From a virus: a DNA stretch of 22,113 nt. Shown one piece after another: positions 5,101 to 21,626 of the stretch. A program made the position numbers and the translations under genes. How positions within the stretch are numbered: the stretch's first letter is position 1; the number at the start of each line of letters is the position of its first letter. Under the pieces are notes generated by a model, which saw nothing but the letters and a program-made list of their open reading frames with translations, was not told where the DNA came from and ran no database searches. Location of the stretch: positions 1 to 22,113 of the IMG/VR virus record IMGVR_UViG_3300014501_000086, one strand, 5' to 3'.

Positions 5101-5673
5101 CGGGATAAGCTGCTCCAGATCCCCATCGTGGGAAATTCCGCCAGCCCAGCCAATACGGACCTTGGCCTCTTTCGGCTTGACGGTAATCTCAGGCAGAGGA
5201 CCATCTAGTTCCGGGAGCAGATTTGGAAGTACCGTGACCGGCGTGCTGCTGAGAGAGCGGAGCCAAATAGCCAAAGATTCAGTCGGACACACAGCACCGT
5301 CGCAAACATCCAGCGCCGCAGCAATGCGTGCGTCGATCTCATCGGGTGGGGCCAGGAATACTTCATGGTAGTTGTCCTCGTCTACAGCGGATAGATGGTC
5401 ATCTAGCTCATAGATGAATTTGGCATTCGGCAAGGCCGCCCGGAGATCCTTCATGTGCTGGATCTGGCCTTCCTCGACTTGCCGCTGGAATACTACCACA
5501 TCCGGCTTGCTGGCCACCATCTCGTCAATGGGGATAATCGCGTGGGTCATACGAGCGTAGGCTAAGCCCGCCTTCACGATGGCCTGGGCCGGGGTGATGA
5601 TCCGGTGCCAGCCGCATCCGTGCATATCAGCAGCGTAGGCTACGACGAAAGGCAGTTTCTCAGTTTTAGTCAT
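2176..5673 (-). CDS. Giant multi-domain glycosyltransferase (GT4-like + degenerate GT2-like + GT2)
   Basis: About 1165 residues, the largest gene here. Residues 1-340 resemble a GT4-type (GT-B) transferase: FIYELDDH near 90 and NEGKSSLRLVQAGMIGAATI near 255-275, the usual acceptor/nucleotide region. Residues 350-530 look like a worn GT2 domain (FSNDG, GPVSVLSPRAV, LAEWGAVASAGG). Residues 780-1030 are a good GT2 domain: KVSVVIPTSG, then ATGDYVLFLNDDV with the NDD metal-sugar motif near 877, QCAGVYAGEGAAF, NYNDVMAGYYARQAGY and HLESASRG. A final domain of about 100 residues is unrecognised. It probably transfers sugars in the cytoplasm to virion proteins or modified DNA. ATG 5673 is chosen because GAGGGA lies 4 bases upstream; an in-frame TTG at 5685 has no such site. 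It heads a leftward operon divergent from TerL. Confidence 0.85.
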   Translation of the reverse strand: MTKTEKLPFVVAYAADMHGCGWHRIITPAQAIVKAGLAYARMTHAIIPIDEMVASKPDVVVFQRQVEEGQIQHMKDLRAALPNAKFIYELDDHLSAVDEDNYHEVFLAPPDEIDARIAAALDVCDGAVCPTESLAIWLRSLSSTPVTVLPNLLPELDGPLPEITVKPKEAKVRIGWAGGISHDGDLEQLIPAVRAIATGPLKDRVQFVFMGMRPKGLDQGLYEFKEGVPPHEFGRALASLNLDVALAPIQQSLFNEGKSSLRLVQAGMIGAATIASPVGEYVKCTAVMAYAENPAEWQIVLENAIREDRNTLTAYKRAQRTWAMGYAMSANAGWVAQAWGLEYQEKPKAKLGKKYVVHGLDLAVHSLGDSFVQGPADITEAYAQARSAGAGLVLARGMTDITPGNLRRLVAATEAAGMGSASAFSNDGATGAGIMNAGQFLPLTPDQGEDIEVALGLLEKKLFPLPFPIGPVSVLSPRAVQTVVAYPEGGAIATLAEWGAVASAGGFKHVLVSDAWATAANADPKIDQQAIKGKGLPFQLLQQVLTSEELGAFRFAAELGYLKRAHKLPKMGGNVLQQLQIWSAYFGGPKTGAASETTSVARIEVGDQESLDEAIEAGIKWIRFDFAGAQMHETALAAMEEAGDADGHSLAYCDWIAMPTDSKGQPNPVFLPEKPDFYYGLGRDFTSAGAIFRTRTIKDLLKGKVPETRTEVWALAQEILGGVAYSSVHVPNLMAAAPENMDTDGRIALIKQFAPEYSCEKIGDFGFIKVRKELELDDEGLAPKVSVVIPTSGNRWLLRPCLATLAKNTEYPGDVEVILVISGSEHDLDVARGQIARLDAGLFTHVVEVLGDFSFPKACNAGANHATGDYVLFLNDDVRFPTAGWLSGMVALAQEEKTAWVGTRLIKQDGTLQCAGVYAGEGAAFECFKGIQVNDIGFAGFAHLLRQTGAACAACALIEKHKFFTLDKFDEAFPWNYNDVMAGYYARQAGYVNLLYTGHDVMHLESASRGKAKHDESIRRLLVDGKLLKTLMTNPDDTFPQNLEAKTVWRGLAAQGSRFENLDWDESGITGKRVLAIGMNVAGIAKNVRDGNRVFVATVTNGKLKFQNPGIAALGEGIPVANEQAIKGVLTALDISEIHLVPNQGEETIMPDLASTWVPTVVNGS

Positions 5674-7718: not shown

Positions 7719-9526
7719 TGGACTCGGACGAAGATACCCTACTAGACCTGGAGGCCATGCTAGGTGCAGAGATGCCCCAGCAGCCCGCTGAGCTGCCAAA
7801 GCGCCCGTTTCTACCAAGCCCGGAGGCACTCGGAATCGTTTCCGACTTCACTCCCGAATCTATGGGCCGGGTCCAGGAGCTTAATTCCTACTCAACGGCT
7901 CTAGTTAAGGCCATGGAGCCCCAGGACCCGCTCGCTAAGGCCCTCGGAGCCCCGCCGACAGCCTTCTCGTTCGTGACCATGAGCTATATGCCAGATCCCC
8001 AGTCCGGGGGTCTAATGAGCTGGCCCGGTATTGCTCCCGGCAGCCTGCAAAAGCTCGCCCGGACCAATCTGGCCCCCGAGATGATTATCAGCACGCGCAT
8101 TGCAGACGTGCTGCGCTACTCGCACATTTCCTCCCACCCGTGGAAACCCGGCTGGCGCATTGAGATGAAGGACCGCTCCTCCAGCCCTACGACCTGGGAC
8201 AAGCGGGACATGCGAGCTTGCGAGACCATGATCGAGAACTGCTCCCTGGACGGAAGCGCAGATACCCCGCGCAAGCGAGATGCACAAGGCTACTTGCCCT
8301 TCAAGAAGTTCCTGGCTGCGGTGGTCCGCGATTTCCTGACCTATGATGCCATCGCACTCTGGACCGATATGGACCAGCGGGGGCGCGTTAAGGGCTTTGT
8401 CCCGGTCCCTTCCGGAAACATCCGCCTTGCAGACCCCAAGATCGGCTACCTAGGAAATCCTAAGGACTTCGCGGTCATGGTGGATCAGGCAGGCACGGTT
8501 GTCCAGCCCTTTACCAGGAATGAGCTGGTATGGCACGTTGGGAATCCCAAGCTAGATCCGGACTGGGGCGGGTATGGCTGGAGTCGGTTGGACGCAGGGA
8601 TGCGCCTGATTGATGCTTTCCAGGCAGCCTTCGATATGAACACGGACGTATTCAGCAAGAACAGCTTCCCGACCGGGATGATGCTCTTGAAGGGTGCGGG
8701 GTGGACTCAGAACGAGCTGGATGCTATTGCTAGGCAAATCTCCAACCTCAAGAAGGGTGTATCTAAGATCTGGTCCATGCCAGCCATGGTGGTCCCGAAG
8801 GACTCCGAGGTTGACTTCCTGGATCTGAACGCATCCAACGAGAAGGATGCCATGTATCAGAATCACATGAATCTGGTCATGGGCGTTTTCAGCCTGCTCT
8901 ATCAGTTCCCGCATGAGCGGCTTGGCTTCCGCATCTCCGGCAAAGGGCCGGATGCAGGCGAGGAGAAGGGCTCCGGGGACAAAAACCAGACTCTTGTAAC
9001 AGCGGATGAAGACATTGGCCTTATCAACCTACTATCTTCGCTTGAGTTTGTCCTCAACGAATACGTCATCAAGACCAGATTCCCGCACCTCCAGCTCGTA
9101 TTCTGCGGAAAGGCTCCCCGAGAGGATGCCCGAGAATATGAGGCCAAGTCCCTGGCGCAGACTTACGGAGAGCGCCGTGCTGCGGCTGATCTTCCTGCCC
9201 TTGAGACTCTGGCTCAGGGTCCTGACGCCAAGAAGATTGCAAAGCTCATGGACCTCGCGCCCATCGACCCAGGACTCGCCGGGGTATTCCAGTCTCTAAT
9301 TACGGCCTATGTAGCCAGCAAGGAGAAGGCCAAGTCCGATGCGGCGGGGCAGCCCGGTGCAAGGTTCCCAGCCACCAAGGACCCCGCCAAAGGCGAGGCC
9401 CACGGGGCAATGAGCGGGGTGCGGAGGAGCACCCAGAAATCCAGCCTCCTAGTGGCCGATGATATCCGACTGGACTATGATTCCGAGGATTACCCAGAGG
9501 AGCACGGAATCCCAGACCCAGACTAG
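7718..9526 (+). CDS. Phage portal protein, HK97-type
   Basis: 602 residues. The portal forms the dodecameric ring at the capsid vertex through which TerL pumps DNA. Supporting features are the position directly after TerL, the size, and typical blocks: an alpha/beta N-terminal body with FLTYDAIALWTDMDQRGRV and VPVPSGNIRLADP, ELVWHVGNPKLDPDWGGYG, the long stem helix region FDMNTDVFSKNSFPTGMMLL, and DFLDLNASNEKDAMYQNH before FPHERLGF. The C-terminal 90 residues are low complexity. The ATG at 7718 shares one base with the TerL stop and has GGGAGG 9 bases upstream; longer in-frame starts upstream lack a ribosome site. It ends in TAG, overlapping the convergent membrane-protein gene by four bases. 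Confidence 0.9.
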   Translation: MDSDEDTLLDLEAMLGAEMPQQPAELPKRPFLPSPEALGIVSDFTPESMGRVQELNSYSTALVKAMEPQDPLAKALGAPPTAFSFVTMSYMPDPQSGGLMSWPGIAPGSLQKLARTNLAPEMIISTRIADVLRYSHISSHPWKPGWRIEMKDRSSSPTTWDKRDMRACETMIENCSLDGSADTPRKRDAQGYLPFKKFLAAVVRDFLTYDAIALWTDMDQRGRVKGFVPVPSGNIRLADPKIGYLGNPKDFAVMVDQAGTVVQPFTRNELVWHVGNPKLDPDWGGYGWSRLDAGMRLIDAFQAAFDMNTDVFSKNSFPTGMMLLKGAGWTQNELDAIARQISNLKKGVSKIWSMPAMVVPKDSEVDFLDLNASNEKDAMYQNHMNLVMGVFSLLYQFPHERLGFRISGKGPDAGEEKGSGDKNQTLVTADEDIGLINLLSSLEFVLNEYVIKTRFPHLQLVFCGKAPREDAREYEAKSLAQTYGERRAAADLPALETLAQGPDAKKIAKLMDLAPIDPGLAGVFQSLITAYVASKEKAKSDAAGQPGARFPATKDPAKGEAHGAMSGVRRSTQKSSLLVADDIRLDYDSEDYPEEHGIPDPD

Positions 9527-11520: not shown

Positions 11521-12075
11521 GTGAGTAATACGAATGTAGGACTAGAGAATTGGGAGCGGGTGCCGGGATTCGAGGATCTTTATGAGGTCTCGGATCTAGG
11601 CAGGGTCCGGACCCTGGATACCCGGAAGATCAAGGAGCGGACGACTAGGGCGGATGGGCAGGTGTGCGTGTGCCTGCATGGGGCGAGCAAGGGCTTGAGG
11701 TCCAAGCATACCCAGGTCAAGCTGATTGTGCTGGCTGCATTTAAGGGTCCGAGGCCGGAAGGGTTGGTATCCTGCAACCTAGACGGGAATAGGGATAATT
11801 GCGCGCTGGGGAATCTTTCCTATATGAGCCTGGGGGAATCTAGGCTTATTGCAGATCGGACTCGCCCGAGGCAGCCCAGGCTGAACAGGTTTATGTTCTC
11901 TGACTTGCAGCGGGAGGCCTTGGCTACCGGGGAGACTGTGATTGAATGCGCGGCCAAGCTGGGAATCCGGGAGGATGTGCTGAGGAACTATGTGCGGCAG
12001 CGGGTTATGGCCAAGGTTAAGTCGAAAGGTAAACCCGAGAGCAAGGGGCTGGGGGCCAATTTCGTTGGACACTAA
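11521..12075 (+). CDS. NUMOD4/HNH-type protein with eroded catalytic residues and C-terminal HTH
   Basis: 184 residues. WERVPGFEDLYEVSDLGRVR (11-30) is a clear NUMOD4 DNA-binding motif. The HNH-like part runs from about 64 to 103: VKLIVLAAFKGPRPEGL, then CNLDGNRDNCALGNLSYMS. In active relatives the first motif reads VHRLV and the second HLDGN, so both catalytic His positions are replaced (Lys and Asn). The tail TVIECAAKLGIREDVLRNYV (139-158) looks like a helix-turn-helix. I infer a nuclease relative that has lost cutting and may bind DNA only. GTG start with GGAG 7 bases upstream. Confidence 0.78.
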   Translation: MSNTNVGLENWERVPGFEDLYEVSDLGRVRTLDTRKIKERTTRADGQVCVCLHGASKGLRSKHTQVKLIVLAAFKGPRPEGLVSCNLDGNRDNCALGNLSYMSLGESRLIADRTRPRQPRLNRFMFSDLQREALATGETVIECAAKLGIREDVLRNYVRQRVMAKVKSKGKPESKGLGANFVGH

Positions 12076-12196
12076 TCTTGTACTGGTAGGTATATTCGTG
12101 GCTGGCGCGGTGGGGTTTGCACTTGCGGACTACCCGTGGCTGGCCTTTGTGAGCCTCTTGATTGCTGGGAATGCTCTGGTTAGACTCTATACTTAG
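12065..12196 (+). CDS. Small membrane protein with two predicted helices, 43 residues
   Basis: TTG at 12065 starts a frame of two hydrophobic segments, NLVLVGIFVAGAVGFAL and WLAFVSLLIAGNALV, separated by ADYP. The start lies 11 bases inside the end of the NUMOD4 gene, after a GGGGG run that could serve as ribosome site. A longer in-frame start at 11990 would be antisense-like and basic, so I reject it. Unknown function. Confidence 0.55.
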   Translation: MDTNLVLVGIFVAGAVGFALADYPWLAFVSLLIAGNALVRLYT

Positions 12197-12225
12197 GTCC
12201 TACGGGCCGGTACGGGATGCTGGAC

Positions 12226-12281
12226 TCATGGTAGACTCAACCTAACCAGGATAGCCCTGGAAGGAATGGAGGATACCATGA
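12226..12281 (+). promoter_or_regulatory. Nested dyad wrapping the start codon of the Gln-rich gene
   Basis: Arms TCATGGTA (12226-12233) and TACCATGA (12274-12281) are perfect complements, and the right arm contains the ATG. An inner stem pairs CCAGG (12246-12250) with CCTGG (12256-12260). The ribosome site GGAGG lies in the internal loop. This mirrors 659-704, down to the shared TGGTAGACT in the left arm, which also fits an extended -10 box. Confidence 0.5.
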
Positions 12282-12424
12282 GTAGAGTCGAAGTAAACCA
12301 GAATGTCAACCAGCAGCAGCAACAGCAGCAGAATGATGAGGCTGAGCGGCAGCGCCGGGAGCAGGAGCGCCAGCAGCAAGAGCAGCAGCAGGGCAATGGG
12401 CAGCGGGAGCGTGAGCGCGAATAG
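12278..12424 (+). CDS. Gln/Glu/Arg-rich microprotein, 48 residues
   Basis: Starts MSRVEVNQNV, then a run of seven Gln, then charged repeats of the QRREQERQQQEQQQ kind, ending in REREREstop. By hand I count 17 Gln, 9 Glu and 8 Arg in 48 residues, with no hydrophobic core. It should form a single highly charged helix or remain disordered. GGAGG lies 5 bases before the ATG, the best ribosome site in the region, and a promoter-like TGGTAGACT precedes it. The CAG-rich tract could vary in length by slippage. Short Q/E/R-rich proteins are known from other phages and plasmids without assigned function. Confidence 0.65.
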   Translation: MSRVEVNQNVNQQQQQQQNDEAERQRREQERQQQEQQQGNGQRERERE

Positions 12425-12770
12425 CTCCTGGCCGTAGGGGGCTGACCCGATTCGAGTTTTTAGTAAAAATTTCGGAAGGGGTCAGACCTACGAATCCCCT
12501 GCATCTGCATACTGCCCGCAGGTACCGTACCCCCTGGACTGCGGTCGGTCAACCCCTGCAAACGCATAGCAGACTGCGCAATCTTGCATGGCTGGGTGGC
12601 AGGCGAGCACGCCAGCCTGAGAGCAGGCCGACTCGGATATCTCTACTAAGCTCATGGAATAAGTAGACAATGCAAGGCGGAAGGATTCCCACGCCATATG
12701 TATAGCATGGGACAGGCAACTACGGTATGCGGAATTTGCATAGCTGATATGCAATAAAGGAGTCTAAATA
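12425..12770. other. Gene-free stretch with several strong inverted repeats
   Basis: No convincing coding frame lies here. Visible structures are: a long hairpin 12442-12485 (CTGACCC...GGGTCAG outside, TTTTTA-G-TAAAAA at the tip), which may terminate the Gln-rich gene; arms CTTGCAT (12583-12589) and ATGCAAG (12670-12676) enclosing a GGCTGG...CCAGCC hairpin and TCTACT...AGTAGA; and TTGCATA (12736-12742) with TATGCAA (12748-12754). It could hold a structured RNA or the remains of lost genes. The enclosed 94 bases are not a tRNA: there is no T-arm. Confidence 0.45.
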
Positions 12771-12785
12771 ATGAGAAGAATCTAA
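12736..12785 (+). pseudogene. Orphan start-associated sequence followed by a four-codon frame
   Basis: The sequence GATATGCAATAAAGGAGTCTAAATA followed by ATG at 12771 closely matches the start-associated motif seen before the real genes at 13532, 15707 and 17299. It is preceded by the same kind of inverted repeat (TTGCATA/TATGCAA). The ATG is followed by only AGA AGA ATC and then TAA. I read it as the surviving 5' end of a gene whose body was lost, perhaps when the adjacent GIY-YIG gene arrived; a regulatory leader peptide is the alternative. Confidence 0.45.
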
Positions 12786-12833
12786 ATTTTTGTTGAAAAT
12801 ATATCTTGATTCGAATCTCGATAGGGGTCAGGC

Positions 12834-13277
12834 TTATTCGTCAATCTCTCTGAACATAGCCCAACCTAGTCTATGCGACTTCACCCATTTATCAACCTTA
12901 TACCGATCAATACCATGTGCACGCGCGGCAGCCTGCATATTCTTAAAGAACCCAAGCGGAGTCACTACCCCGAGTCGCTTCTCAGGCAATATGCCTAGCG
13001 ATTCCTTGTGCCTGCTTGTGTTTAAGCCTGTATTATATGGAGGGCTAAGCGCATCAATATAACGCCATTCCACGAGTCGCAATTGGTCCGGATCAGTAGC
13101 CAAGACAAAATGCGAATCGAACTCGCATATGGGAGTCCTTTGATGCTGTGCCAAGCGATTCGGGACATCCTTAGATTGCCCGATATACTGCAATTGATTG
13201 CCCAAGAATAAGAAGTATACCCCGCTAATAGGGTTAACTTTCTGTTTTTGGGCAATCAATTCATCTAGAGTCTGCAT
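12834..13277 (-). CDS. GIY-YIG endonuclease (probable homing nuclease)
   Basis: 147 residues. The catalytic domain is complete: GVY at 19-21, YIG at 31-33, Arg41 in NRLAQH, Glu70 in LVEWRYIDALSPPYN and Asn82. The C-terminal 40 residues (TPLGFFKNMQAAARAHGIDR, then KVDKWVKSH) look like a NUMOD1-type helical DNA-binding module, as in I-TevI-like homing nucleases. It lies alone between the orphan start at 12771 and the small membrane gene at 13332, which suggests a free-standing mobile gene that has displaced part of this gene cluster. Confidence 0.88.
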   Translation of the reverse strand: MQTLDELIAQKQKVNPISGVYFLFLGNQLQYIGQSKDVPNRLAQHQRTPICEFDSHFVLATDPDQLRLVEWRYIDALSPPYNTGLNTSRHKESLGILPEKRLGVVTPLGFFKNMQAAARAHGIDRYKVDKWVKSHRLGWAMFREIDE

Positions 13278-13318
13278 AGGCTCATAGTAGCAGGCTGGGA
13301 ATCCACGTCAACCCAGCC
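13278..13318 (-). promoter_or_regulatory. Promoter-like TTGACG inside an inverted repeat, GIY-YIG gene
   Basis: On the minus strand TTGACG (13311-13306) stands between perfect 7-base arms that read GGCTGGG at 13293-13299 and CCCAGCC at 13312-13318 on the plus strand. A -10 box at the usual distance is poor (CTATGA at 18 bases). The dyad could end the preceding leftward transcript or be an operator. Confidence 0.35.
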
Positions 13319-13331
13319 CGCAATCTTTTTT

Positions 13332-13532
13332 CTACCCCATTGCAGCCTGCAACCAGAACCAAACAATCCCGCCGAAAATTAGCGCAGTCGCGCTCAGAGT
13401 AAGCACCGCGAATCCCATGCCGCTAAGCAATGCAGCTCTCGGATTCGTGCCCCATTCAACCCGTAAATGTACATAACTATTCCAGGTCAAGAATCCAAAC
13501 ACTGCCAGGATAACAAGCGCCAAGGTCAACAT
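13332..13532 (-). CDS. Small membrane protein with two predicted helices, 66 residues
   Basis: Hydrophobic segments LTLALVILAVFGFLTW and GMGFAVLTLSATALIFGGIV are separated by a polar loop with NPRAALLS. No signal peptide cleavage is expected. The ATG carries the start-associated motif ATATCAATAGGAGATTACAGT, the same as several neighbours, so this start is well supported. Unknown function. Confidence 0.7.
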   Translation of the reverse strand: MLTLALVILAVFGFLTWNSYVHLRVEWGTNPRAALLSGMGFAVLTLSATALIFGGIVWFWLQAAMG

Positions 13533-13585
13533 ACTGTAATCTCCTATTGATATGCAAGTAATAGACGATTTTATCTAGGAGTCAA
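13533..13585 (-). promoter_or_regulatory. Promoter and start-associated motif of the 66-residue membrane gene
   Basis: TTGACT (13585-13580), a 16-base spacer and TATTAC, then ATATCAATAGGAG just before the ATG. Directly upstream is a perfect 8-base-arm dyad, GGGGGATT-T-AATCCCCC (13586-13602), that covers the last codons of the methyltransferase-like gene and may act as its terminator. Confidence 0.5.
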
Positions 13586-14148
13586 GGGGGATTTAATCCC
13601 CCCCATTGATCAGCCATTGCATTGGCGATTCCAATAAATGTTCTAGACCTCTCACGCCACCTATGTGGGCCAGGTGGCATCCTATGTATGCGCGCTTCCC
13701 TGCCGGAAACAATACTAGTTGGTACAAGCATAGGTAGATTGTCCAACCACAAGCATGTTGCCTTAGTCTCGCCATGCCCATACTGCCAAGGCTGAATAAT
13801 TTGATCTGGCTTACGAATTTGGCTTGAAATTATGCTAATTGGATTCTCTATTGCGATTCTAGGTATTTTAGAATCCATAAGCATTTGTACGAAATCCAAG
13901 GCGGCTTGCTGCCGACCATCCGCGCGCTTAGCTGCGAAGTGTCTCGCTCCGGATACCGCTAAGTGCGTGCATGGTGGGTGGGCTATCATAAGATCGAATC
14001 CATTACCTATAATGTCCCGAATATCTCCAACATAGTGCGGGCCTGGCTTTTCTGTATCCAAGAGATCGCATGAAATAGCATCATGGCCCCGGGCTATAAA
14101 CGCATCGCGTACCGTTCCGGAGAACTCACAAGCAATTAAGACTCGCAT
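13582..14148 (-). CDS. Cytosine methyltransferase-like protein, short form
   Basis: 188 residues. MRVLIACEFSGTVRDAF is the SAM-binding beginning, HPPCTHLAVSG (57-67) is in the place of the catalytic Cys loop of C5 cytosine methyltransferases, and IENP (100-103) matches their ENV motif. KATCLWLDNLPML and RSRTFIGIANAMADQW follow as in similar phage proteins. There is no recognisable target-recognition domain, and the length is about half that of a bacterial Dcm-type enzyme. It may methylate phage DNA to escape restriction, or may be a non-DNA methyltransferase. ATG 14148 is chosen over the upstream in-frame TTG because TTGGAG is its ribosome site. Its 3' end contains a GGGGG...CCCCC dyad. Confidence 0.72.
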   Translation of the reverse strand: MRVLIACEFSGTVRDAFIARGHDAISCDLLDTEKPGPHYVGDIRDIIGNGFDLMIAHPPCTHLAVSGARHFAAKRADGRQQAALDFVQMLMDSKIPRIAIENPISIISSQIRKPDQIIQPWQYGHGETKATCLWLDNLPMLVPTSIVSGREARIHRMPPGPHRWRERSRTFIGIANAMADQWGGLNPP

Positions 14149-14203
14149 AATAGACTCCAATTGTTATACTTATTCGTATATCGCTTTTTTGCTAAGATTG
14201 CAA
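14149..14203 (-). promoter_or_regulatory. Promoter of the methyltransferase-like gene
   Basis: TTGCAA (14203-14198), 17 bases, TATACG (14180-14175), then GTATAACAATTGGAGTCT before the ATG, a diverged copy of the TATCAATAGGAG start motif. This is one of the best promoter matches on this strand. Confidence 0.5.
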
Positions 14204-14216
14204 ATTTGGTTAAGCG

Positions 14217-14408
14217 CTAATACAGATTGATTGCAAAATTAATGACTGCGCCAAGATTCCAGACTAGAAGCGCGCTAGCCGACATGCAGGCAATAAAGCC
14301 TAGCAGGTCCAGCCAAGGAATCCGGGCCTTGTGCGGGCTTGCTGCGGGCTTGGCGGGGTATAGCGGGGATATTGTCCCCGCCACCTTGAAGGACAAGCGC
14401 GCGCCCAT
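14217..14408 (-). CDS. Small membrane protein, 63 residues
   Basis: A basic N-terminal half (MGARLSFKVAGTISPLYPAK) leads into LLGFIACMSASALLVW and LGAVINFAINLY, one long or two short membrane helices at the C-terminus. Its ATG shares bases with the TAA of the 81-residue gene upstream (TAATG), so translation is coupled and there is no separate promoter. Unknown function. Confidence 0.6.
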   Translation of the reverse strand: MGARLSFKVAGTISPLYPAKPAASPHKARIPWLDLLGFIACMSASALLVWNLGAVINFAINLY

Positions 14409-14653
14409 TAGGACCAGTCCCGAATCGCTGCGCGAATCGTAGTCTTAGAATAGGGTGCGCCGTCCGGAGTCGCGTGGATTCCCATACCCTGAAGGTCGGA
14501 AAGAATACATCCCGCCGCAATATCCCGATTTAGCTTGTGATGCCGGGTGCATCGAATGACAAGATTATAGAGTCCTTCGTCATTCCCAAGCCAAAGACTC
14601 ACATTCCAATGATTCCAATTCTTATGTCCATTATATGCTTTGTGCTGCGCCAT
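14408..14653 (-). CDS. Conserved phage/plasmid protein of the NGWxNYxTWNVxLWxGNDEG type, 81 residues
   Basis: Starts MAQHKAYNGHKNWNHWNVSL and continues WLGNDEGLYNLVIRC. This block is the hallmark of a small family seen widely in phages and plasmids, usually in clusters of accessory genes; I believe it is catalogued as a DUF but cannot confirm the number. The role is unknown. ATG 14653 is preceded by GGAG at 8 bases; an in-frame TTG at 14683 has no ribosome site. Its stop overlaps the next start. Confidence 0.72.
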   Translation of the reverse strand: MAQHKAYNGHKNWNHWNVSLWLGNDEGLYNLVIRCTRHHKLNRDIAAGCILSDLQGMGIHATPDGAPYSKTTIRAAIRDWS

Positions 14654-14725
14654 GGTAGAGTCTCCGAGGTTTAAGTTAATCAATGTCGATAGATATTAGA
14701 TAGGACGATTCGCGGGCTCAGTCAA
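14654..14725 (-). promoter_or_regulatory. Promoter of the 81-residue gene
   Basis: TTGACT (14725-14720), 17 bases, TATCTA (14702-14697): a near-consensus promoter. The -35 box overlaps the GAC TGA end of the preceding gene. The leader differs from its neighbours (CTCGGAGACTCTACC) and lacks the TATCAATAGGAG motif. Confidence 0.55.
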
Positions 14726-14996
14726 CAAGAGTCGCGATCAACATTCCAATTTCCTCACCCCGTAAAGAACGCAGATGATTCGACGCATACCAGGAGGAGG
14801 AGTCGCGAATCCACCACGCGGGGTTGCGATAGAACGCCTTGCGCATGGCATAGGGCAGGGATTCAAATACGATTGAACCATCTGGCAGATACGGGACTCC
14901 ATCCTTATACAAGCCATGTAAACCGGCTTGCTTAGCCTCATGAATGGACTCCCAAACCTTAATGCCGCCTTTAATCAATTCTACTTTAATTCGCAT
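14718..14996 (-). CDS. Hypothetical protein, 92 residues
   Basis: Starts MRIKVELIKGGIKVWESIHE, then HGLYKDGVPYLPDG, then RNPAWWIRDSSSWYASNH. No family recognised. The YKDG element also occurs in the 64-residue protein at 15254, and WY.xNH also in the 125-residue protein at 15770, so these small genes may be distantly related; this is weak. The start carries TTATTAATAGGAGATTCACC at 14997-15016 but no promoter of its own. It lies 13 bases after the 65-residue gene and is probably cotranscribed. In-frame upstream starts would overlap that gene. Confidence 0.68.
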   Translation of the reverse strand: MRIKVELIKGGIKVWESIHEAKQAGLHGLYKDGVPYLPDGSIVFESLPYAMRKAFYRNPAWWIRDSSSWYASNHLRSLRGEEIGMLIATLVD

Positions 14997-15003
14997 GGTG
15001 AAT

Positions 15004-15016
15004 CTCCTATTAATAA
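15004..15016 (-). repeat. Start-associated motif without own promoter
   Basis: TTATTAATAGGAG, a copy of the TATCAATAGGAG family, sits before the ATG at 14996. The stop codon TAA of the preceding gene (15012-15010) lies within it. It is the only clear copy here with no -35 box, so the motif is likely tied to translation initiation rather than only to transcription. Confidence 0.55.
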
Positions 15017-15207
15017 CCAAGCCAAACCAACAAATCCGCCGCATCAATTTGCAGGCTCGACTCGCAATCCAGCCCGGAGTCGTTCAAATAATCCTCAAGA
15101 CTCGTGCAATGATCCTCACACATAGCTCGGCTTGCATGGACTCCGAGCATTACGGACTCGCCTATTGATTGCGCATAAAATGCTTGGCCGGATGTAAATT
15201 GCGACAT
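15010..15207 (-). CDS. Hypothetical protein, 65 residues
   Basis: Starts MSQFTSGQAFYAQSIGESVM and ends DAADLLVWLGY; acidic, with a Cys/His cluster (MCEDHC). No family recognised. ATG 15207 directly follows the start-associated motif CTATCAATAGGAGTTCACCC, which rules out the in-frame start 24 bases upstream. Its stop lies in the ribosome-site motif of the next gene. Confidence 0.68.
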   Translation of the reverse strand: MSQFTSGQAFYAQSIGESVMLGVHASRAMCEDHCTSLEDYLNDSGLDCESSLQIDAADLLVWLGY

Positions 15208-15261
15208 GGGTGAACTCCTATTGATAGGCAATAACTAGCTCGATTCGGCTTAGCTAGTCAA
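15208..15261 (-). promoter_or_regulatory. Promoter with dyad, plus start-associated motif, 65-residue gene
   Basis: TTGACT (15261-15256), then CTAGTT or TAGTTA at 17 or 18 bases. Perfect 7-base arms ACTAGCT (15234-15240) and AGCTAGT (15252-15258) overlap the -10 and -35 boxes, as an operator would. The -35 box also contains the GAC TAG end of the upstream gene. CTATCAATAGGAG follows. Confidence 0.5.
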
Positions 15262-15448
15262 GCGATAGCTTGGCCTTAGTCGAGACATAATGCGCAAAAT
15301 GTCCTGGAGTCTTGCGTGCTACCGTATGCAGGCAAGAAAGATCATGCCAGAATTTAGCGGATTCGTAGGTGGACTCAGTAACACGGATTCCATCCTTATA
15401 GAAGCGACTCGGCTTGTCGGAATATGTATGCTTGACTAGTTGGGCCAT
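15254..15448 (-). CDS. Hypothetical basic protein, 64 residues
   Basis: Starts MAQLVKHTYSDKPSRFYKDG, then RVTESTYESAKFWHDLSCLH, ending KAKLSLD. No family recognised. The start-associated motif TTATCAATAGGAGAATCCACT immediately precedes the ATG. Its final codons double as the -35 box of the next gene's promoter. Confidence 0.68.
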   Translation of the reverse strand: MAQLVKHTYSDKPSRFYKDGIRVTESTYESAKFWHDLSCLHTVARKTPGHFAHYVSTKAKLSLD

Positions 15449-15515
15449 AGTGGATTCTCCTATTGATAACTAGGGTTTAGCATATCGGGCTGAGTCCTGC
15501 AACCCAAGCCCGATA
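15449..15515 (-). promoter_or_regulatory. Promoter with 9-base-arm dyad, plus start-associated motif, 64-residue gene
   Basis: TTGGGT (15507-15502), 17 bases, TATGCT (15484-15479), then TTATCAATAGGAG. Arms TATCGGGCT (15483-15491) and AGCCCGATA (15507-15515) are perfect complements with a 15-base loop and bracket the spacer from the -35 to the -10 box. The hairpin lies 10 bases after the preceding gene and may also end its transcript. Confidence 0.5.
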
Positions 15516-15524
15516 GAATAAGCC

Positions 15525-15707
15525 CTATGCTTTGCAGGCTTCCCGGAATGTTTCCATATTAAACCGGGGATTCTCGGCTTGCAAAGCACGGCCCATTTGA
15601 GACGCAAAGGTATCGCGCGATATCGCCATATCTCCGGGCTTGTCCGAATGGAATTGGAACGAGTCGCGGATTACCTAGGCAATCAAAATATAGTCTTTTT
15701 TCGTCAT
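15525..15707 (-). pseudogene. Small conserved gene (MTKKDY family) interrupted by an in-frame amber codon
   Basis: From the ATG at 15707, after an ATATCAATAGGAGAATCCAC start motif, the frame reads MTKKDYILIA, then TAG at 15677-15675, then VIRDSFQFHSDKPGDMAISR and on to ALQAENPRFNMETFREACKA before a second TAG. The start (MTKKDY.LIA) and end (NPRF....F..AC) are those of a roughly 60-residue family common in phages, so both halves belong to one gene. One base change from CAG, AAG or GAG explains the TAG. It may be a pseudogene, a suppressed or recoded codon, or a sequencing error. Neighbouring genes end in TAG, so TAG is not generally reassigned. Confidence 0.7.
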
Positions 15708-15761
15708 GTGGATTCTCCTATTGATATGTGCAGTAATGGGGGATTAACTCCCCCATGTCAA
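15708..15761 (-). promoter_or_regulatory. Promoter with dyad, plus start-associated motif, amber-interrupted gene
   Basis: TTGACA (15761-15756) and a 17-base spacer lead to CATTAC. The spacer is filled by a dyad with 7-base arms TGGGGGA (15737-15743) and TCCCCCA (15749-15755). ATATCAATAGGAG follows. The -10 is weak, which fits a controlled promoter. Confidence 0.5.
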
Positions 15762-15769
15762 GCCGAGGA

Positions 15770-16147
15770 TTAAAAGAATATCATGCCATTTTTCCAATAG
15801 TGATTCGACTCCCATAATCCAATCTCGCAACCCCGGCCAGATTTATATATAAGATCGACCGACTCCGCCCATGTCGGAATTTCTTTATGCGCGGTATAGA
15901 AGATTCCATCCGGGCTTTTATGCGCCCAAACAATGTGATTCCGATACCACGAGTCGCGCTGCGCTTGCATATATCCATCGACATAGTACCTCACCCATGC
16001 CGGAGTCTTGGCCAAGGACTCCAAGATTACCCCATAGCGCTTATTGATATCGTCATGAGCTAGGCCAAACTCATGGGCGTGCCAGGACAGGCTATTGACG
16101 GACTCAACGGCACGATTACGGATTTTTAAGGCGGTTTCGACTCGCAT
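15770..16147 (-). CDS. Hypothetical protein, 125 residues
   Basis: Starts MRVETALKIRNRAVESVNSL, with YVDGYMQAQRDSWYRNHIVW in the middle and an aromatic end (WESNHYWKNGMIFF). Mixed helical N-terminus and beta-like C-terminus; no family recognised. CTATCAACAGGAGAATCCC stands directly before the ATG. It has its own promoter. Confidence 0.7.
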   Translation of the reverse strand: MRVETALKIRNRAVESVNSLSWHAHEFGLAHDDINKRYGVILESLAKTPAWVRYYVDGYMQAQRDSWYRNHIVWAHKSPDGIFYTAHKEIPTWAESVDLIYKSGRGCEIGLWESNHYWKNGMIFF

Positions 16148-16204
16148 GGGATTCTCCTGTTGATAGATAATAATTAGATGGATTCGCTTAGCTATTCAAG
16201 GGGG
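16148..16204 (-). promoter_or_regulatory. Promoter and start-associated motif, 125-residue gene
   Basis: TTGAAT (16199-16194), 17 bases, TAATTA (16176-16171), then CTATCAACAGGAG. The spacer AGCTAAGCGAATCC is nearly the same as in the 15207 promoter (AGCTAAGCCGAATC), so the promoters themselves are repeats. A GGGGATTAAACACCCCC dyad covering the stop of the previous gene lies just upstream. Confidence 0.52.
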
Positions 16205-16207
16205 TGT

Positions 16208-16639
16208 TTAATCCCCTTCAAAATAGCGCCAAGAATTCGGCACGTCATAGGATTGTACTGATCCGTCCAATTCATCCAGGATTCCGGCGTTTGGGACGCA
16301 AGGGGATGCCATGCGGGCGGAGTCCGTAATGTGCGGGCTTTGAAAGATAAAGAAGTTTAGCGCGCCACCCAGCCAAGAAGAGGCATAATGGACTCCCTGA
16401 TATACCCCGGACACGCTCGATTCGTCCGAATCGAAATACTCGCCAAGATTGTCCGGCAATTCGTCATCCTCGGATAGGGCATTCTCAGCCCGATATTCTT
16501 TAACAAAGTCATCCCATGAATGGTCCGTGAACTCCGAGCCATGCCCATAAAGGAGCGAATCAACCGTATCGGAATGCAAAGCCAGGGCGGAGATATAGCC
16601 GAAAGCGATTCCGGTCTCAAGATTGATATTCGTCGTCAT
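16208..16639 (-). CDS. Conserved acidic phage/plasmid protein (SPCVPNAG family), 143 residues
   Basis: The central part GVHYASSWLGGALNFFIFQS followed by ASPCVPNAGILDELDG and YDVPNSW is the signature of a small family common in phages and mobile elements of proteobacteria. Its function is unknown to me. The N-terminal half is very acidic (SEDDELPDNLGEYFDSDESS), which suggests a protein that binds basic surfaces or mimics DNA. ATG has TTATCAAATGAGGAG upstream. It is the first gene of the long leftward cassette and is divergent from 16839. Confidence 0.72.
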   Translation of the reverse strand: MTTNINLETGIAFGYISALALHSDTVDSLLYGHGSEFTDHSWDDFVKEYRAENALSEDDELPDNLGEYFDSDESSVSGVYQGVHYASSWLGGALNFFIFQSPHITDSARMASPCVPNAGILDELDGSVQSYDVPNSWRYFEGD

Positions 16640-16695
16640 ATTGCGTGCTCCTCATTTGATAATCACTAGCTAAACTAGGCTGATTCGCTTGTCAA
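16640..16695 (-). promoter_or_regulatory. Promoter and start-associated motif, SPCVPNAG gene
   Basis: TTGACA (16695-16690), 17 bases, TAGCTA (16672-16667), then TTATCAAATGAGGAG. The spacer again contains AGCGAATC. It opens the leftward cassette. Confidence 0.55.
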
Positions 16696-16704
16696 CAAAG
16701 CATG

Positions 16705-16741
16705 TGCACTTATTTTATTTTTCTCTAAAAAGCGCAGTGCA
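16705..16741. repeat. AT-rich hairpin between divergent promoters
   Basis: Arms TGCACT (16705-16710) and AGTGCA (16736-16741) enclose TTTTT (16718-16722), CTCT and AAAAA (16727-16731). The hairpin at 12442-12485 has a similar GC outer and TTTTT/AAAAA inner layout. Its position between diverging genes argues against a terminator; an insulator, operator or unwinding site is possible. Confidence 0.35.
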
Positions 16742-16784
16742 GTGTATAAGGACTCAGATTGGCAGAAAAGATTGCTTGATAGGG

Positions 16785-16838
16785 TTGACCGTAGAATCAG
16801 CCTAGGCTAGTAATCAGATATCAAATGGAGTTTATAGA
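16785..16838 (+). promoter_or_regulatory. Promoter and start-associated motif, 131-residue gene
   Basis: TTGACC (16785-16790), 17 bases, TAGTAA (16808-16813), then ATATCAAATGGAG before ATG 16839. The spacer includes the palindrome AGCCTAGGCT next to the -10 box. This is the plus-strand member of the same promoter family. Confidence 0.55.
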
Positions 16839-17234
16839 ATGCAGGTTGAATCGCTAATTGGGCAGACTCTGATCTGCCATGTGACGGGCAAGCAATTCAT
16901 TGGCGCGGTAGCTGGTTGCAGCACGAATTATGCTCGGGATTCCGAGGGGCGTATATTCTCAGACGCAGGAGTCGATATTCAGCAAAAACAGGACTTGCTA
17001 AATCGCAGCAAGCCATTTACGGGCTATATTTCGGGCGATGGCAAGAGCCTTACGGGCTGGAAGGGAAATCACTTGGGCGCGGTTATTTGGGCAAGCCCGG
17101 TGCGACTCGCACGCTGGAGTCACTTTCCTGGTAAAGCCTATGCGGCATATCGGATCCGAGATATTCATGGAGGATTCTGGCATGGGCGTTCAAGTCCGGG
17201 TCTGTGCATAAATATCCGCGCGGCTAAAAAATAA
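16839..17234 (+). CDS. Hypothetical protein, 131 residues
   Basis: Starts MQVESLIGQTLICHVTGKQF, continues GAVAGCSTNYARDSEGRIFS and ends in a basic tail. Gly/Ser-rich and probably beta-structured; no family recognised. Own promoter and start motif as above, divergent from the leftward cassette. Confidence 0.7.
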   Translation: MQVESLIGQTLICHVTGKQFIGAVAGCSTNYARDSEGRIFSDAGVDIQQKQDLLNRSKPFTGYISGDGKSLTGWKGNHLGAVIWASPVRLARWSHFPGKAYAAYRIRDIHGGFWHGRSSPGLCINIRAAKK

Positions 17235-17241
17235 TATTGGC

Positions 17242-17298
17242 TTGTCAGATAGGGAGTCCGACTCCCTATCGCATAAACCAATAGAGGAGTCTAAAAAT
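17242..17298 (+). promoter_or_regulatory. 23-bp palindrome in the promoter, plus start motif, 132-residue gene
   Basis: GATAGGGAGTC-C-GACTCCCTATC (17248-17270) is a perfect dyad with 11-base arms, directly after TTGTCA (17242-17247). The -10 box is unclear. AAACCAATAGAGGAGTC precedes the ATG. It may be a strong operator, or a terminator of the preceding gene whose stop is 13 bases before it. Confidence 0.5.
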
Positions 17299-17697
17299 AT
17301 GGACATTGATATTACGCGATTCGTGCTGGATCTGGATCCATATGAATTTAGTGCGAGCTTTGCGGAGATAGGGCCTAATGCCGCGCGGATTACTTGGGGT
17401 AATGCAAAGGAGCAAGCCAAGGACTCGCCATTGCTTGAAAGTGAGGAGGAATTGCAGGCTTTGCGCGATCATGTGCAGGGAATGGGATTTGGCGAGGAAG
17501 TGCAGCAATACGGCGCGGAAGAATGCAATGCGCTATTTATTCAGCTCATATCCGGGGATATGCGAGAGTCCGGCATGGACGGGGATATGGAGTCATTTGA
17601 CTGGGAGGAATACCACGAGCAATGCGAAGCAGGACAGCTAGCGGGCAGAATAGGGCAGTGGGATGACGGAAGGATCGGCTATTACCTAGGGGACTAG
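17299..17697 (+). CDS. Conserved phage/ICE protein of unknown function, acidic, 132 residues
   Basis: DLDPYEFSASFAEIGPNAAR, ITWGNA, PLLESEEELQALRDHVQGMG, EECNALFIQLISGDMRESG and AGQLAGRIGQWDDGRIGYYL follow in the order of a family I recognise from phages and integrative elements, without known function. The protein is strongly acidic. ATG 17299 is chosen by the AGAGGAG site and start motif; a longer in-frame start at 17242 would run through the promoter palindrome. Confidence 0.75.
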   Translation: MDIDITRFVLDLDPYEFSASFAEIGPNAARITWGNAKEQAKDSPLLESEEELQALRDHVQGMGFGEEVQQYGAEECNALFIQLISGDMRESGMDGDMESFDWEEYHEQCEAGQLAGRIGQWDDGRIGYYLGD

Positions 17698-18078
17698 GAA
17701 TCCGCATAGTGCGGGCAGGAGTCGGGTGGGAGTCTCAAGATTCCTGCCCTATTCTTATTTTCTGGAATAGGGCTATCGCGAGTCTCAAAAATTAGATTTG
17801 TCTCAGGTTTTGAGATAAAAGCCTTGAGCTGAGACAAGTCTGACTCTTTGGGTTTTTGCGGCCTGATTCTGGGAATCTGGACTCGATTCCTCGCGTGGGA
17901 CAAATCTATATAATGCGCGCTGTCCTGCGGGAATCTTATTATCTGGATTCTCCCGCCTTATTTGCACGAATCCGTCTCGATTCCTGGGATTCTGTCTCGA
18001 TTTTTGAGATTCTGCTCGGATTCTGAGATTGAATCCCACATTTTGAGACTTTTTGCACTTTTCTGGAGCAATCTCATC
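17698..18078. other. Non-coding block dense in GANTC and GTCTCA/TGAGAC motifs
   Basis: This 381-base gap lies between two convergent genes. By hand I count about 17 GANTC sites and a dozen TCTCA/TGAGA elements, including GTCTCAG...CTGAGAC pairs. Imperfect decamer-like copies of GATTCTGGGA / GATTCTGAGA lie at 17867-18035. Two hairpins share bases: GGGCAGGA (17713-17720) with TCCTGCCC (17742-17749), and CCCTATTC (17747-17754) with GAATAGGG (17765-17772). TATAAT at 17909-17914 has no good -35 box. Reading frames here are repetitive and basic with no ribosome sites, so I regard the block as non-coding. Confidence 0.55.
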
Positions 18079-18627
18079 CTATGAGACTCGCGCGAACTCG
18101 CCAAACAATTCTCGGGCTTTCGCGCAATAGGCGGCATGGGCAAGCTCGGGATCAGTAAAGTACCCTAAATGGATTCTAACTCCGTTATGCTTAATTTGGG
18201 CCTTCCAAGCCTTATTTGACTCGTTCCAATGGACTCCCTTGAAGCCTGATGTATTATTCTGCGGGAGTCCCCTGTTAGCCCCATTTTGTTGCGTAGTGGC
18301 CAACCTGAGATTGTTCCACTTATTGTCTAGTGAATCTGTATTTATATGGTCTACTCCGAGTCTAGGCCACTCGCCAGTCATATAGATCCATGCGAGTCTA
18401 TGGGCCTGATAGACCTTGCCATTGATACCTATCGCGCGGGTTGGACCCCCCCCAGGTCTTGCGGGCCGAATCTTACCCGCTATTGCGCCAGCCCGGACCC
18501 CTCCCCTCCCCCCAATCTTCCAGGTAAAGACTCCAGATACCGGATCGTATTGCAGAATCTCGCGCAAATATTCCGCAGAAAAATGGTTGACATGCTTAAT
18601 GCAGCTAGTTAATGGTTGATCGGTCAT
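18079..18627 (-). CDS. HNH-AP2 homing endonuclease-like protein (copy 1)
   Basis: 182 residues. The HNH core runs YQAHRLAWIYMTGEWP (73-88), VDHINTDSLDNKWNNLRLAT (92-111), with His76, Asp93-His94 and Asn105 in the catalytic positions. The C-terminal AP2-type DNA-binding domain (127-179) has SGFKGVHWNESNKAWKAQI and HLGYFTDPELAHAAY. This pair of domains is typical of free-standing phage homing endonucleases. ATG 18627 has GGGG 8 bases upstream. It is a paralogue of the gene at 21084. A Pro-rich stretch (ARPGGGPT), coded by a long C run, distinguishes it. Confidence 0.88.
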   Translation of the reverse strand: MTDQPLTSCIKHVNHFSAEYLREILQYDPVSGVFTWKIGGRGGVRAGAIAGKIRPARPGGGPTRAIGINGKVYQAHRLAWIYMTGEWPRLGVDHINTDSLDNKWNNLRLATTQQNGANRGLPQNNTSGFKGVHWNESNKAWKAQIKHNGVRIHLGYFTDPELAHAAYCAKARELFGEFARVS

Positions 18628-18680
18628 AGAGTACCCCTAGAATTCAATTCATTCTAGTAATATCCTGCAAATAATACAAG

Positions 18681-18692
18681 CCCCCTCCCCCC
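18681..18692. repeat. C-rich tract, one of a series at gene boundaries
   Basis: CCCCCTCCCCCC. Similar tracts occur at 19222-19232, 19732-19737, 20202-20220 (G6 facing C8, able to fold), 20478-20483 and 21075-21080. All but the one at 19222 lie between genes, and that one marks the fusion joint. They might be transcript-processing or terminator-like elements. Confidence 0.35.
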
Positions 18693-18724
18693 TATCCAGC
18701 CTACAAAAAAGTTTCAGACTGGGC

Positions 18725-18795: not shown

Positions 18796-19728
18796 ATGGA
18801 ACAGAACAACCGCGCCGACATTCTCCGCCGCATCCGTGGCTTACTGGCAAAAACTACGGGCAATGGCTGCACCGAGTCGGAAGCACTTGCAGCGGCCAGT
18901 CTACTCGCTAAGCTAGTGGACAAATACGGCTTCACTCCTATTGACCTGGAGGAGCCTATGGAAAAATTGACGGAGATTCTTGTATCGGCCAAGGGTGCGA
19001 GTCCTGCCCTGCACTATGCGGTGGCGGTTTCGGAGTATTGCGATTGCCCGGTTCTGAATCGTAAATCGAGCGGCACGCTGGTATTTTTTGGAACTGAGGT
19101 GGATTCCATGCTGGCCGAATATCTTATGAGTCTGCTATCTCATGCGCATACTACGGGCTGGAAAGCCTACCTGAAAGCGGAAAGAATTGCAGGCAAGACG
19201 GGGGGCTCGGATAATAAGGAGCCCCCACCCCCTATGAAGTTTGTTAATTTAGTCGGCCAACGATTCGGATCGCTCCAGGTCATAGCGAGGGCCGAGAACC
19301 TCGCAGGAAAAATCACATGGATGTGTCGATGTGATTGCGGCGGAGAAACTAGATCCACTGGTGGCAATCTCAGGACGGGAACCTCAACAAATTGTGGATG
19401 TGTTCGTCGCGCTGGGTTAGCGGCTAGGAGTACCACCCACGGATTGGGGAAGCCCCCTGAATGGGGTAATTGGATTAGTATGTTAAAAAGATGCTATAAT
19501 CCAAAGACTATTGGCTATAAATACTGGGGAGGTCGTGGAATATCTGTCTGCGATGCCTGGAGAAATGATTTTGGGGCTTTTTACCGGGATATGGGACCAA
19601 AGCCGAGCCCCAAACACTCACTCGATAGATACCCGGACAATTCAGGAAACTATGAGCCTGGAAATGTAAGATGGGCCACACAAAAGGAGCAAGTGGCCAA
19701 TAGTAAGCGTTATTTACGGGTCCGCTAA
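18796..19728 (+). CDS. DUF2786-type protein fused to a zinc-finger/HNH-like endonuclease
   Basis: 310 residues in two unrelated parts. Residues 1-140 are a DUF2786-like protein (RADILRRIRGLLAKTTGNGC, ALAAASLLAKLVDKYGF) with the following domain breaking off near GWKAYLKAERIAGK. Residues 147-310 match a complete phage endonuclease family that usually starts at this Met: LVGQRFGSLQVIAR, CRCDCGG (177-183), NCGCVRR (200-206), RCYNPKT, YWGGRGISVCDAW, SLDRYPDNSGNYEPGN, RWAT. They are joined in frame by GGSDNKEPPPP. At the joint GGGGGCTC...GAGCCCCC can fold over AAGGAG before ATG 19234, so the nuclease could also be made separately. I infer insertion of an endonuclease gene that truncated the host gene; no remaining 3' part follows. 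Confidence 0.8.
   Translation: MEQNNRADILRRIRGLLAKTTGNGCTESEALAAASLLAKLVDKYGFTPIDLEEPMEKLTEILVSAKGASPALHYAVAVSEYCDCPVLNRKSSGTLVFFGTEVDSMLAEYLMSLLSHAHTTGWKAYLKAERIAGKTGGSDNKEPPPPMKFVNLVGQRFGSLQVIARAENLAGKITWMCRCDCGGETRSTGGNLRTGTSTNCGCVRRAGLAARSTTHGLGKPPEWGNWISMLKRCYNPKTIGYKYWGGRGISVCDAWRNDFGAFYRDMGPKPSPKHSLDRYPDNSGNYEPGNVRWATQKEQVANSKRYLRVR
19201..19236 (+). promoter_or_regulatory. Hairpin covering an internal ribosome site at the fusion joint
   Basis: GGGGGCTC and GAGCCCCC are 8-base complementary arms. The right arm overlaps AAGGAG, the only ribosome site before the internal ATG at 19234. It resembles the translational control used by some phage homing endonuclease genes. Confidence 0.4.
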
Positions 19729-21083: not shown

Positions 21084-21626
21084 CTACGAGGTCCGGGCGA
21101 ACTCCCCATACAGTTCTGCAACCTTGGTGCAATAAGCCGCATGGGCGTCTTCCGGAGTCCTGAACTCCCCGAGTATGATCTTCCTGCCCTTGAAACGTAC
21201 AGCGGCTCTCCAAGCAGCATGAGATGGGTGCCAATAGACTCCTTTGAATCCGGACTTATTATTCTTCTGGGGGCCTCGATTGGCTTGGTTCTGGGACGTG
21301 GTGGCGAGTCTGAGGTTATTCCAACGATTGTTTAACGAGTCTGTATCAATATGGTCGATCTCCAGGGCGGGCCACTCGCCAGTCATATACAACCAAGCAA
21401 GGCGGTGGTTAAAATACGACTTTCCGTTTATCCGTATAGATAGTCGTTGCTTAGGCTTATTTGTGCTTTTAGAGCCTGCTTGGGCTCCAGGTATAGCTCG
21501 ATTCCCCCTCCGCACCTTCCAGGTAAAGACTCCTGTTTCCGGATCATAGTGCAGAATCTCCCGCAATAAATCTAGCGTAAGATGGTTGACAGGCCCCACC
21601 TTAATGGGTATTGAATGCTCAGTCAT
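21084..21626 (-). CDS. HNH-AP2 homing endonuclease-like protein (copy 2)
   Basis: 180 residues, paralogous to 18079-18627. HNH part: FNHRLAWLYMTGEWP (72-86) and IDHIDTDSLNNRWNNLRLAT (90-109), with His74, Asp91-His92 and Asn103. AP2 part (125-178): SGFKGVYWHPSHAAWRAAVR and ILGEFRTPEDAHAAY. GGAG lies 9 bases before the ATG. It is read against its neighbours, as expected for an inserted mobile gene. Both copies end in GEFAR-x-S. Confidence 0.88.
   Translation of the reverse strand: MTEHSIPIKVGPVNHLTLDLLREILHYDPETGVFTWKVRRGNRAIPGAQAGSKSTNKPKQRLSIRINGKSYFNHRLAWLYMTGEWPALEIDHIDTDSLNNRWNNLRLATTSQNQANRGPQKNNKSGFKGVYWHPSHAAWRAAVRFKGRKIILGEFRTPEDAHAAYCTKVAELYGEFARTS

Follow-up and report, generated by a model that had tools for sequence, protein, structure and literature searches.

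Small genes of a tailed-phage fragment stand behind a repeated leader that probably forms a unit with its own promoter

Start-associated sequences have been described in actinobacteriophages, where their role is still open. In the cluster K phages, the function of the start-associated sequence (SAS) and of the extended start-associated sequence (ESAS) is unknown (PMC3203893; PMC11373665), and the ESAS of Adephagia contains SigA-like promoters with a spacing of 17-18 base pairs (bp) (PMC11373665). In T4-type phages, promoter(early)-stem-loop cassettes (PeSLs) have been reported (Arbiol 2010 and Comeau 2014, as cited in PMC4503421). Here we describe a start-associated repeat of a different sequence in IMG/VR record IMGVR_UViG_3300014501_000086, a 22,113-base virus record (the whole of which is called the window below) that belongs to a soil-type bacterial virus and is probably a fragment. 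Genes for a terminase large subunit (5790-7718) and a portal protein (7697-9526) indicate a tailed phage, to which named phages are only distantly related. About ten tiny genes in the window lie behind nearly the same short start signal, and each can probably be switched on by itself.

A leader conserved beyond the Shine-Dalgarno sequence

The initial annotation had proposed that a repeated sequence stands directly before the start codons of these genes, and counts across the window bear this out. At no more than one mismatch, TATCAATAGGAG occurs six times, against a mean of 0.135 (maximum 3) in 200 Markov shuffles. All six copies are on the minus strand, before the starts at 13532, 14996, 15207, 15448, 15707, and 16147, and an ATG follows every one of them (6/6) at a distance of 6-8 nucleotides (nt), whereas only 3.3% of random positions have the ATG of a long open reading frame (ORF) at that distance. 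There is no further copy at this threshold elsewhere in the 22-kilobase (kb) fragment, and none at up to two mismatches before any of the 21 other window starts that were examined. The core copies are listed here, with genes named by their start coordinates in the text.

13541..13552, minus strand: core leader TATCAATAGGAG, before gene 13332-13532
15004..15015, minus strand: core leader TATTAATAGGAG, promoter-less, before gene 14718-14996; contains the TAA stop of gene 15010-15207
15215..15226, minus strand: core leader, before gene 15010-15207
15457..15468, minus strand: core leader, before gene 15254-15448
15715..15726, minus strand: core leader, before ORF 15527-15707, which is interrupted in frame by TAG (codon 11)
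16154..16165, minus strand: core leader TATCAACAGGAG, before gene 15770-16147

Identity among the six copies is 94% in the leader, but only 33% in the preceding 28 nt, 24% further upstream, and 33% in the first 30 coding nt, and unrelated stretches, with small shifts permitted, reach about 35%. With its flanks at background, the leader itself is therefore constrained, most likely by selection, and its conservation extends beyond a Shine-Dalgarno sequence, as had been claimed. In viral contigs, TATCAATAGGAGAATCC was found as 12 chance-like singletons and never as a repeat.

Promoter-like boxes in a fixed register to the leader

In a scan anchored on the TATC of the leader, a TTGAC-like box was found 33-35 nt upstream of TATC in 9 or 10 of 12 leaders. 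Boxes matching at 5 or more of 6 positions precede 7 of the 12 (background, 0.014), and exact TTGAC...TATCAA strings occur five times against 0.05 expected. When the -10 boxes are read by this register, A occupies position 2 in nine of ten, and T at position -7 occurs in none of ten. The promoter-like stretches are as follows.

13547..13585, minus strand: promoter-leader TTGACT-16-TATTAC-TATCAA; the -35 box overlaps the TGA stop of the methyltransferase gene
14168..14203, minus strand: promoter of 14148, TTGCAA-17-TATACG
14691..14725, minus strand: promoter of 14653, TTGACT-17-TATCTA; the -35 box overlaps the TGA stop of gene 14718-14996
15221..15261, minus strand: promoter-leader of 15207, TTGACT; the -35 box overlaps the TAG stop of gene 15254-15448
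15468..15502, minus strand: promoter of 15448, TTGCAG-17-TAAACC
15721..15761, minus strand: promoter-leader of 15707, TTGACA; the spacer holds a stem-loop
16165..16199, minus strand: promoter of 16147, TTGAAT-17-TAATTA
16656..16695, minus strand: promoter-leader of 16639, TTGACA
16785..16824, plus strand: promoter-leader of 16839, TTGACC; inverted homologue of the 16639 promoter
17242..17277, plus strand: weak promoter-like stretch of 17299, TTGTCA-17-CCTATC; overlapped by the palindrome GATAGGGAGTCCGACTCCCTATC

The 14653 cassette, which the initial annotation did not list, separates the two parts of the leader. It reads TTGACT-17-TATCTA-5-TATC, with the Shine-Dalgarno sequence about 26 nt past the start of TATC, so that TATC has kept its position relative to the promoter while the Shine-Dalgarno sequence has shifted downstream. 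At 14996 the opposite is seen, a leader with no promoter. TATC thus appears to be part of the transcription start and AGGAG part of the translation signal. The whole pattern, TTGAC-N28-30-TATCAATAGGAG, was also found as a single copy in each of 22 viral and 11 bacterial stretches. The unrelated viral contigs among these often have a perfect TATAAT 4-6 nt before TATC, and the register is therefore that of an ordinary sigma70 promoter with TATC near +1.

We consider it probable that the array consists of copies of a promoter-leader module, each serving a single small gene, and that each leader forms the 5' terminus of a very short mRNA transcribed from its own promoter. Each gene would have its own housekeeping-sigma promoter, with TTGAC as the -35 box and a poor TAnnnn as the -10 box; transcription would start at about TATC, giving a predicted 5' untranslated region of about 18-21 nt, and AGGAG, 6-9 nt before the ATG, would serve as the Shine-Dalgarno sequence. 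Selection on the start site and leader, and not anti-Shine-Dalgarno pairing, would maintain TATCAAT. The phage would have multiplied this module ahead of small, probably early, accessory genes, and a gene with its own expression signal could be kept, lost, or inverted independently of its neighbors. As a case that is not homologous to the actinobacteriophage sequences, with its motif at the predicted transcription start and in a fixed promoter register, the array offers a concrete reading in which promoter and minimal leader form one transplantable unit, and this, if true, would explain how tiny host-takeover genes are traded one at a time among phages.

Several observations weigh against this reading. 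The claim that most copies have a promoter-like box of their own is upheld by the anchored scan, although an unanchored scan with the Escherichia coli promoter consensus gave no excess (10 versus 10.0 expected), because the -10 boxes of the array are poor; they match TATAAT at only 2-4 of 6 positions. At 14996 the motif is kept but the promoter is absent, as had been noted earlier and as the anchored scan confirmed. The promoter-leader copies, judged by their spacers, are partly related by descent and hence not independent. Searches through the terminase and portal genes yielded only three close relatives, all short IMG/VR contigs limited to the structural region (terminase at 96% for L013 and L014 and 79% for L015), and none of the three reaches the small-gene array.

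Diverged leaders and the packing of the cassettes

The description of the leaders as near-identical holds for the six core copies and fails for others: ungapped mismatches to TATCAATAGGAG number four at 16639, two at 16839, four at 17299, and six at the orphan copy at 12771, and the 14148 leader has two. At up to three mismatches TATCAATAGGAG is no commoner than chance (23 versus 18.9), and the diverged copies therefore rest on their position and promoter register. The leaders of 17299 and of the orphan 12771 form a separate subfamily, CAATARAGGAGTCTAAA.

12750..12762, plus strand: orphan subfamily leader TGCAATAAAGGAG (TCTAAA); the ORF behind it has only 4 codons (MRRI-stop)
14155..14168, minus strand: diverged leader TATAACAATTGGAG, before the phrog_757 methyltransferase gene 13582-14148
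14662..14691, minus strand: long leader TATCGACA...CGGAG, before gene 14408-14653; its TATC coincides with the predicted start of transcription, and its Shine-Dalgarno sequence follows well downstream
16648..16661, minus strand: diverged leader TATCAAATGAGGAG, before gene 16208-16639
16819..16830, plus strand: diverged leader TATCAAATGGAG, before gene 16839-17234
17277..17289, plus strand: subfamily leader ACCAATAGAGGAG (TCTAAA), before gene 17299-17697

T4 RegB-like cleavage of the GGAG leaders was rejected as a candidate: the leaders depart from the RegB consensus GGAGRAYARAA (PMC3014915), and GGAG is frequent as a Shine-Dalgarno sequence.

The genes are arranged mostly as single units, on both strands. 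From the start of the -35 box to the upstream stop codon the gaps are -8, -8, -4, 7, 8, 8, and 22 nt, with overlap in three cassettes; most -35 boxes thus abut or overlap the preceding stop, and the modules are packed end to end. Spacer sequence is shared above the 99.5% background level within two groups, 15207/16147/14653 and 16639/16839, whose members look related by descent, the latter pair as inverted 44-nt copies (16653-16696 and 16784-16827). Inverted repeats occur at some junctions only and are mostly unrelated in sequence. Between some genes and the next promoter there are stem-loops; those at 15448 and 17299 are strong, those at 13532 and 15707 are moderate (z of -1.7), and the others are not significant. 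The two strong ones are listed here.

15471..15527, minus strand: stem-loop with 21-nt arms, after ORF 15527-15707; overlaps the 15448 promoter (z of -3.1)
17235..17283, plus strand: stem-loop with 24-nt arms, after gene 16839-17234 (z of -5.1)

ORF 15527-15707 (minus strand) follows a perfect leader and is interrupted by TAG at codon 11 (MTKKDYILIA, stop, VIRDSFQFHSDKPGDMAISRDTFASQMG...). Rescue by TAG recoding is unlikely, since 11 of 29 listed genes end in TAG; TAG is a regular stop here, and the 15707 gene is therefore probably a pseudogene. This broken gene and the orphan leader at 12771 fit the loss of genes from surviving modules. The earlier proposal that single-gene cassettes are gained, lost, or flipped remains plausible but draws only indirect support, from the 44-nt inverted copies, the orphan leader (12771), and the copy without a promoter (14996).

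GANTC saturation of the region

The region around the array (12001..18700) contains 132 GANTC sites against 27.8 expected (z of 19.8; 4.7-fold), and no other word among the 1,024 that fit xy(N0-3)zw comes close to it in enrichment there. All four bases are about equally frequent at its center (68, 64, 64, and 68, counting both strands). Enrichment is found between and inside genes, with in-gene counts mostly above the mean of synonymous-codon shuffles, and in most array promoters a GANTC falls within the spacer or on the -35 box. The same saturation is seen at 21084-21626 and at 5000-8000 of L015, the relative with the next-highest value among the viral loci fetched (z of 5.4 in its best 6 kb). 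It is unusual, as GANTC is at least twofold under-represented in most alphaproteobacterial genomes (PMC3973325) and is depleted, at 0.03 to 0.77 of expectation, in stretches of six alphaproteobacterial phages.

The AATCC that often follows the leaders is part of a GANTC site. We reject a reading of AATCC as belonging to the leader signal: GANTC overlaps 8 of 12 leader GGAGs and 27 of 54 other GGAGs of the region (P = 0.35), which marks it as a feature of the region, separate from the leaders. GANTC-specific methyltransferases are known from some alphaproteobacterial phages (PMC5537653), but the phrog_757 methyltransferase of the array has a PPC motif in place of the NPPY/F/W of those enzymes, and no link to GANTC can therefore be claimed for it.

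A gene-free stretch of about 380 bp (17698-18078) is the densest in GANTC and contains recurring units that resemble TCTCGATTTTTGAGATT, as well as several inverted repeats; it is possibly a replication origin or a regulatory region. Two HNH endonuclease genes on the minus strand (18079-18627 and 21084-21626), 57% identical to each other, are both GANTC-rich, and further HNH, NUMOD4, and GIY-YIG endonuclease genes lie near them.

The host and alternative explanations

T at position -7 is absent from most promoters of Alphaproteobacteria, and Actinobacteria and Betaproteobacteria lack a TTG triad at -35 (PMC8407463). The lack of -7T from all ten -10 boxes of the array suggests an alphaproteobacterial host; an actinobacterial host is improbable.

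If TATCAAT at the start site were an operator, a phage protein would bind it and switch all of the genes together, making the array a true regulon. Seven bases are conserved beyond the Shine-Dalgarno sequence while the spacer is not, a position over +1 would suit a repressor, and the Adephagia authors proposed a regulator at the ESAS inverted repeats (PMC11373665). We nevertheless think an operator unlikely: there is no convincing dyad beyond TATnnATA, TATC at 14653 keeps its place within an otherwise different motif, the palindromes close to the promoters are unlike one another, and the window yielded no identified regulator gene. The earlier idea that all of these genes answer to one signal is not supported, as no operator, regulator, or shared nonpromoter element was found. 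It is also quite unlikely that the motif acts in translation alone, as an SAS-like extended ribosome-binding site with no part in transcription. Its ribosome-binding-site position with a spacing of 6-9 nt and its retention without a promoter inside the two-gene unit at 14996 would suit such a role, but the fixed 33-35-nt register to TTGAC ties it to transcription, TATC at 14653 is far from its Shine-Dalgarno sequence, and TATCAAT has no complementarity to the 3' end of 16S rRNA. Recent duplication with homogenization by recombination, leaving no function beyond an ordinary Shine-Dalgarno sequence, could account for the two promoter groups with shared spacers and for the inverted copies. As a general explanation it seems very unlikely, since in most pairs identity drops to background immediately before the leader, itself 94% identical, and plain duplication would not end at 12 nt.

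The abundance of GANTC raises a further alternative, that the modules respond to methylation, with the sites in spacers and at the Shine-Dalgarno sequence coupling expression to CcrM-type methylation and GcrA. GcrA with sigma70 is known to activate promoters carrying methylated GANTC (PMC7987155; PMC3667746), and the regional enrichment, the sites in most array promoters, and -10 boxes that fit an alphaproteobacterial host could all be accommodated. This coupling is highly improbable, given that GANTC is no denser at the leaders than at other GGAGs of the region, is enriched in coding sequence too, has a neutral central base, and does not follow the GcrA-preferred YGAKTCG (PMC7987155), and that the host class is itself only suggested. 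A broader idea, that an alphaproteobacterial phage has filled its accessory or early region, with its promoters and leaders, with CcrM sites, whose methylation state on the incoming DNA, changing during replication, would be a common switch or timer for the promoter-leader modules, also strikes us as distinctly unlikely; if true, it would be the opposite of the GANTC depletion in other alphaproteobacterial phages.

Gene content and relatives

Searches of the small genes against Pfam, NCBIfam, and PADLOC gave no firm functions, and Rfam and tRNA searches gave no match. The leader-bearing gene 15770-16147 (minus strand) has a weak match (1.3e-5) over residues 10-71 to the PADLOC ThsB TIR-like model, which is probably not meaningful. 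No relatives were found through gene 17299 or gene 14718, or in genome_contigs, and none of the 80 loci recovered through the methyltransferase has a repeated leader with the array motif.

Outside the array, ORF 18796-19728 (plus strand) combines a DUF2786/DUF7168 region with one of an HNH endonuclease and looks like a gene into which an endonuclease has inserted. The terminase ORF of L015 (1578-4400) is about 300 residues longer, with an intein-like insert, and an HNH-like ORF lies within it in another frame (3395-3955). Beside the terminase gene of the window, 2176-5670 (minus strand) encodes a very large glycosyltransferase-like protein of 1164 amino acids with phrog_7162 at its N terminus.

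Comparison with known systems

The cluster K SAS and ESAS (Pope et al. 2011, PMC3203893; Adephagia, PMC11373665) share with the array an over-conserved 12-13 nt at the ribosome-binding site of many small nonstructural genes, a core ATAGGAG, and a sigma70-like promoter immediately upstream of many copies. As in the SAS, an over-conserved sequence with AGGAG lies immediately upstream of many array starts, and the SigA/sigma70-like -35 and -10 elements of the ESAS have their counterpart in a TTGAC-like box in register with a weak -10 box. The 17-bp imperfect inverted repeats (4-13-bp spacer) shared just upstream in the ESAS have no shared counterpart in the array, and the cluster K consensus GGGATAGGAGCCC has no match at up to two mismatches and five at three, fewer than chance and none before array starts. 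The parallel drawn in the initial annotation, of like arrangement and different sequence, stands. Unlike cluster K, the array consists mostly of single-gene units, its -35 boxes abut or overlap upstream stops, and its TATC falls where transcription is predicted to begin.

The SAS of Microbacterium cluster EF phages (PMC7302621) is another independent repeated start-associated sequence with a weakly conserved upstream element; its consensus is GGGAAAGGACCCC, and the upstream element is centered on GTAGAG rather than being a TTGAC promoter. In the haloarchaeal virus HGTV-1 (PMC3950731), a conserved, repeated promoter/inverted-repeat motif with a promoter-like element precedes most ORFs in part of the genome, but the element is an archaeal, TATA-like one from another domain of life. 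T4 PeSLs, as presented in PMC4503421, likewise combine a repeated promoter with an intergenic stem-loop between small genes and have been proposed to allow single-gene shuffling. Putative sigma70 promoters lie between genes in the array too, as read from sequence; relative to PeSLs as that source describes them, its stem-loops occur at only some junctions and differ in sequence, and the conserved part is the leader and not the promoter core. Without claiming membership in either group, we suggest by analogy that the array may work like an ESAS promoter joined to an SAS and like the PeSLs of T4.

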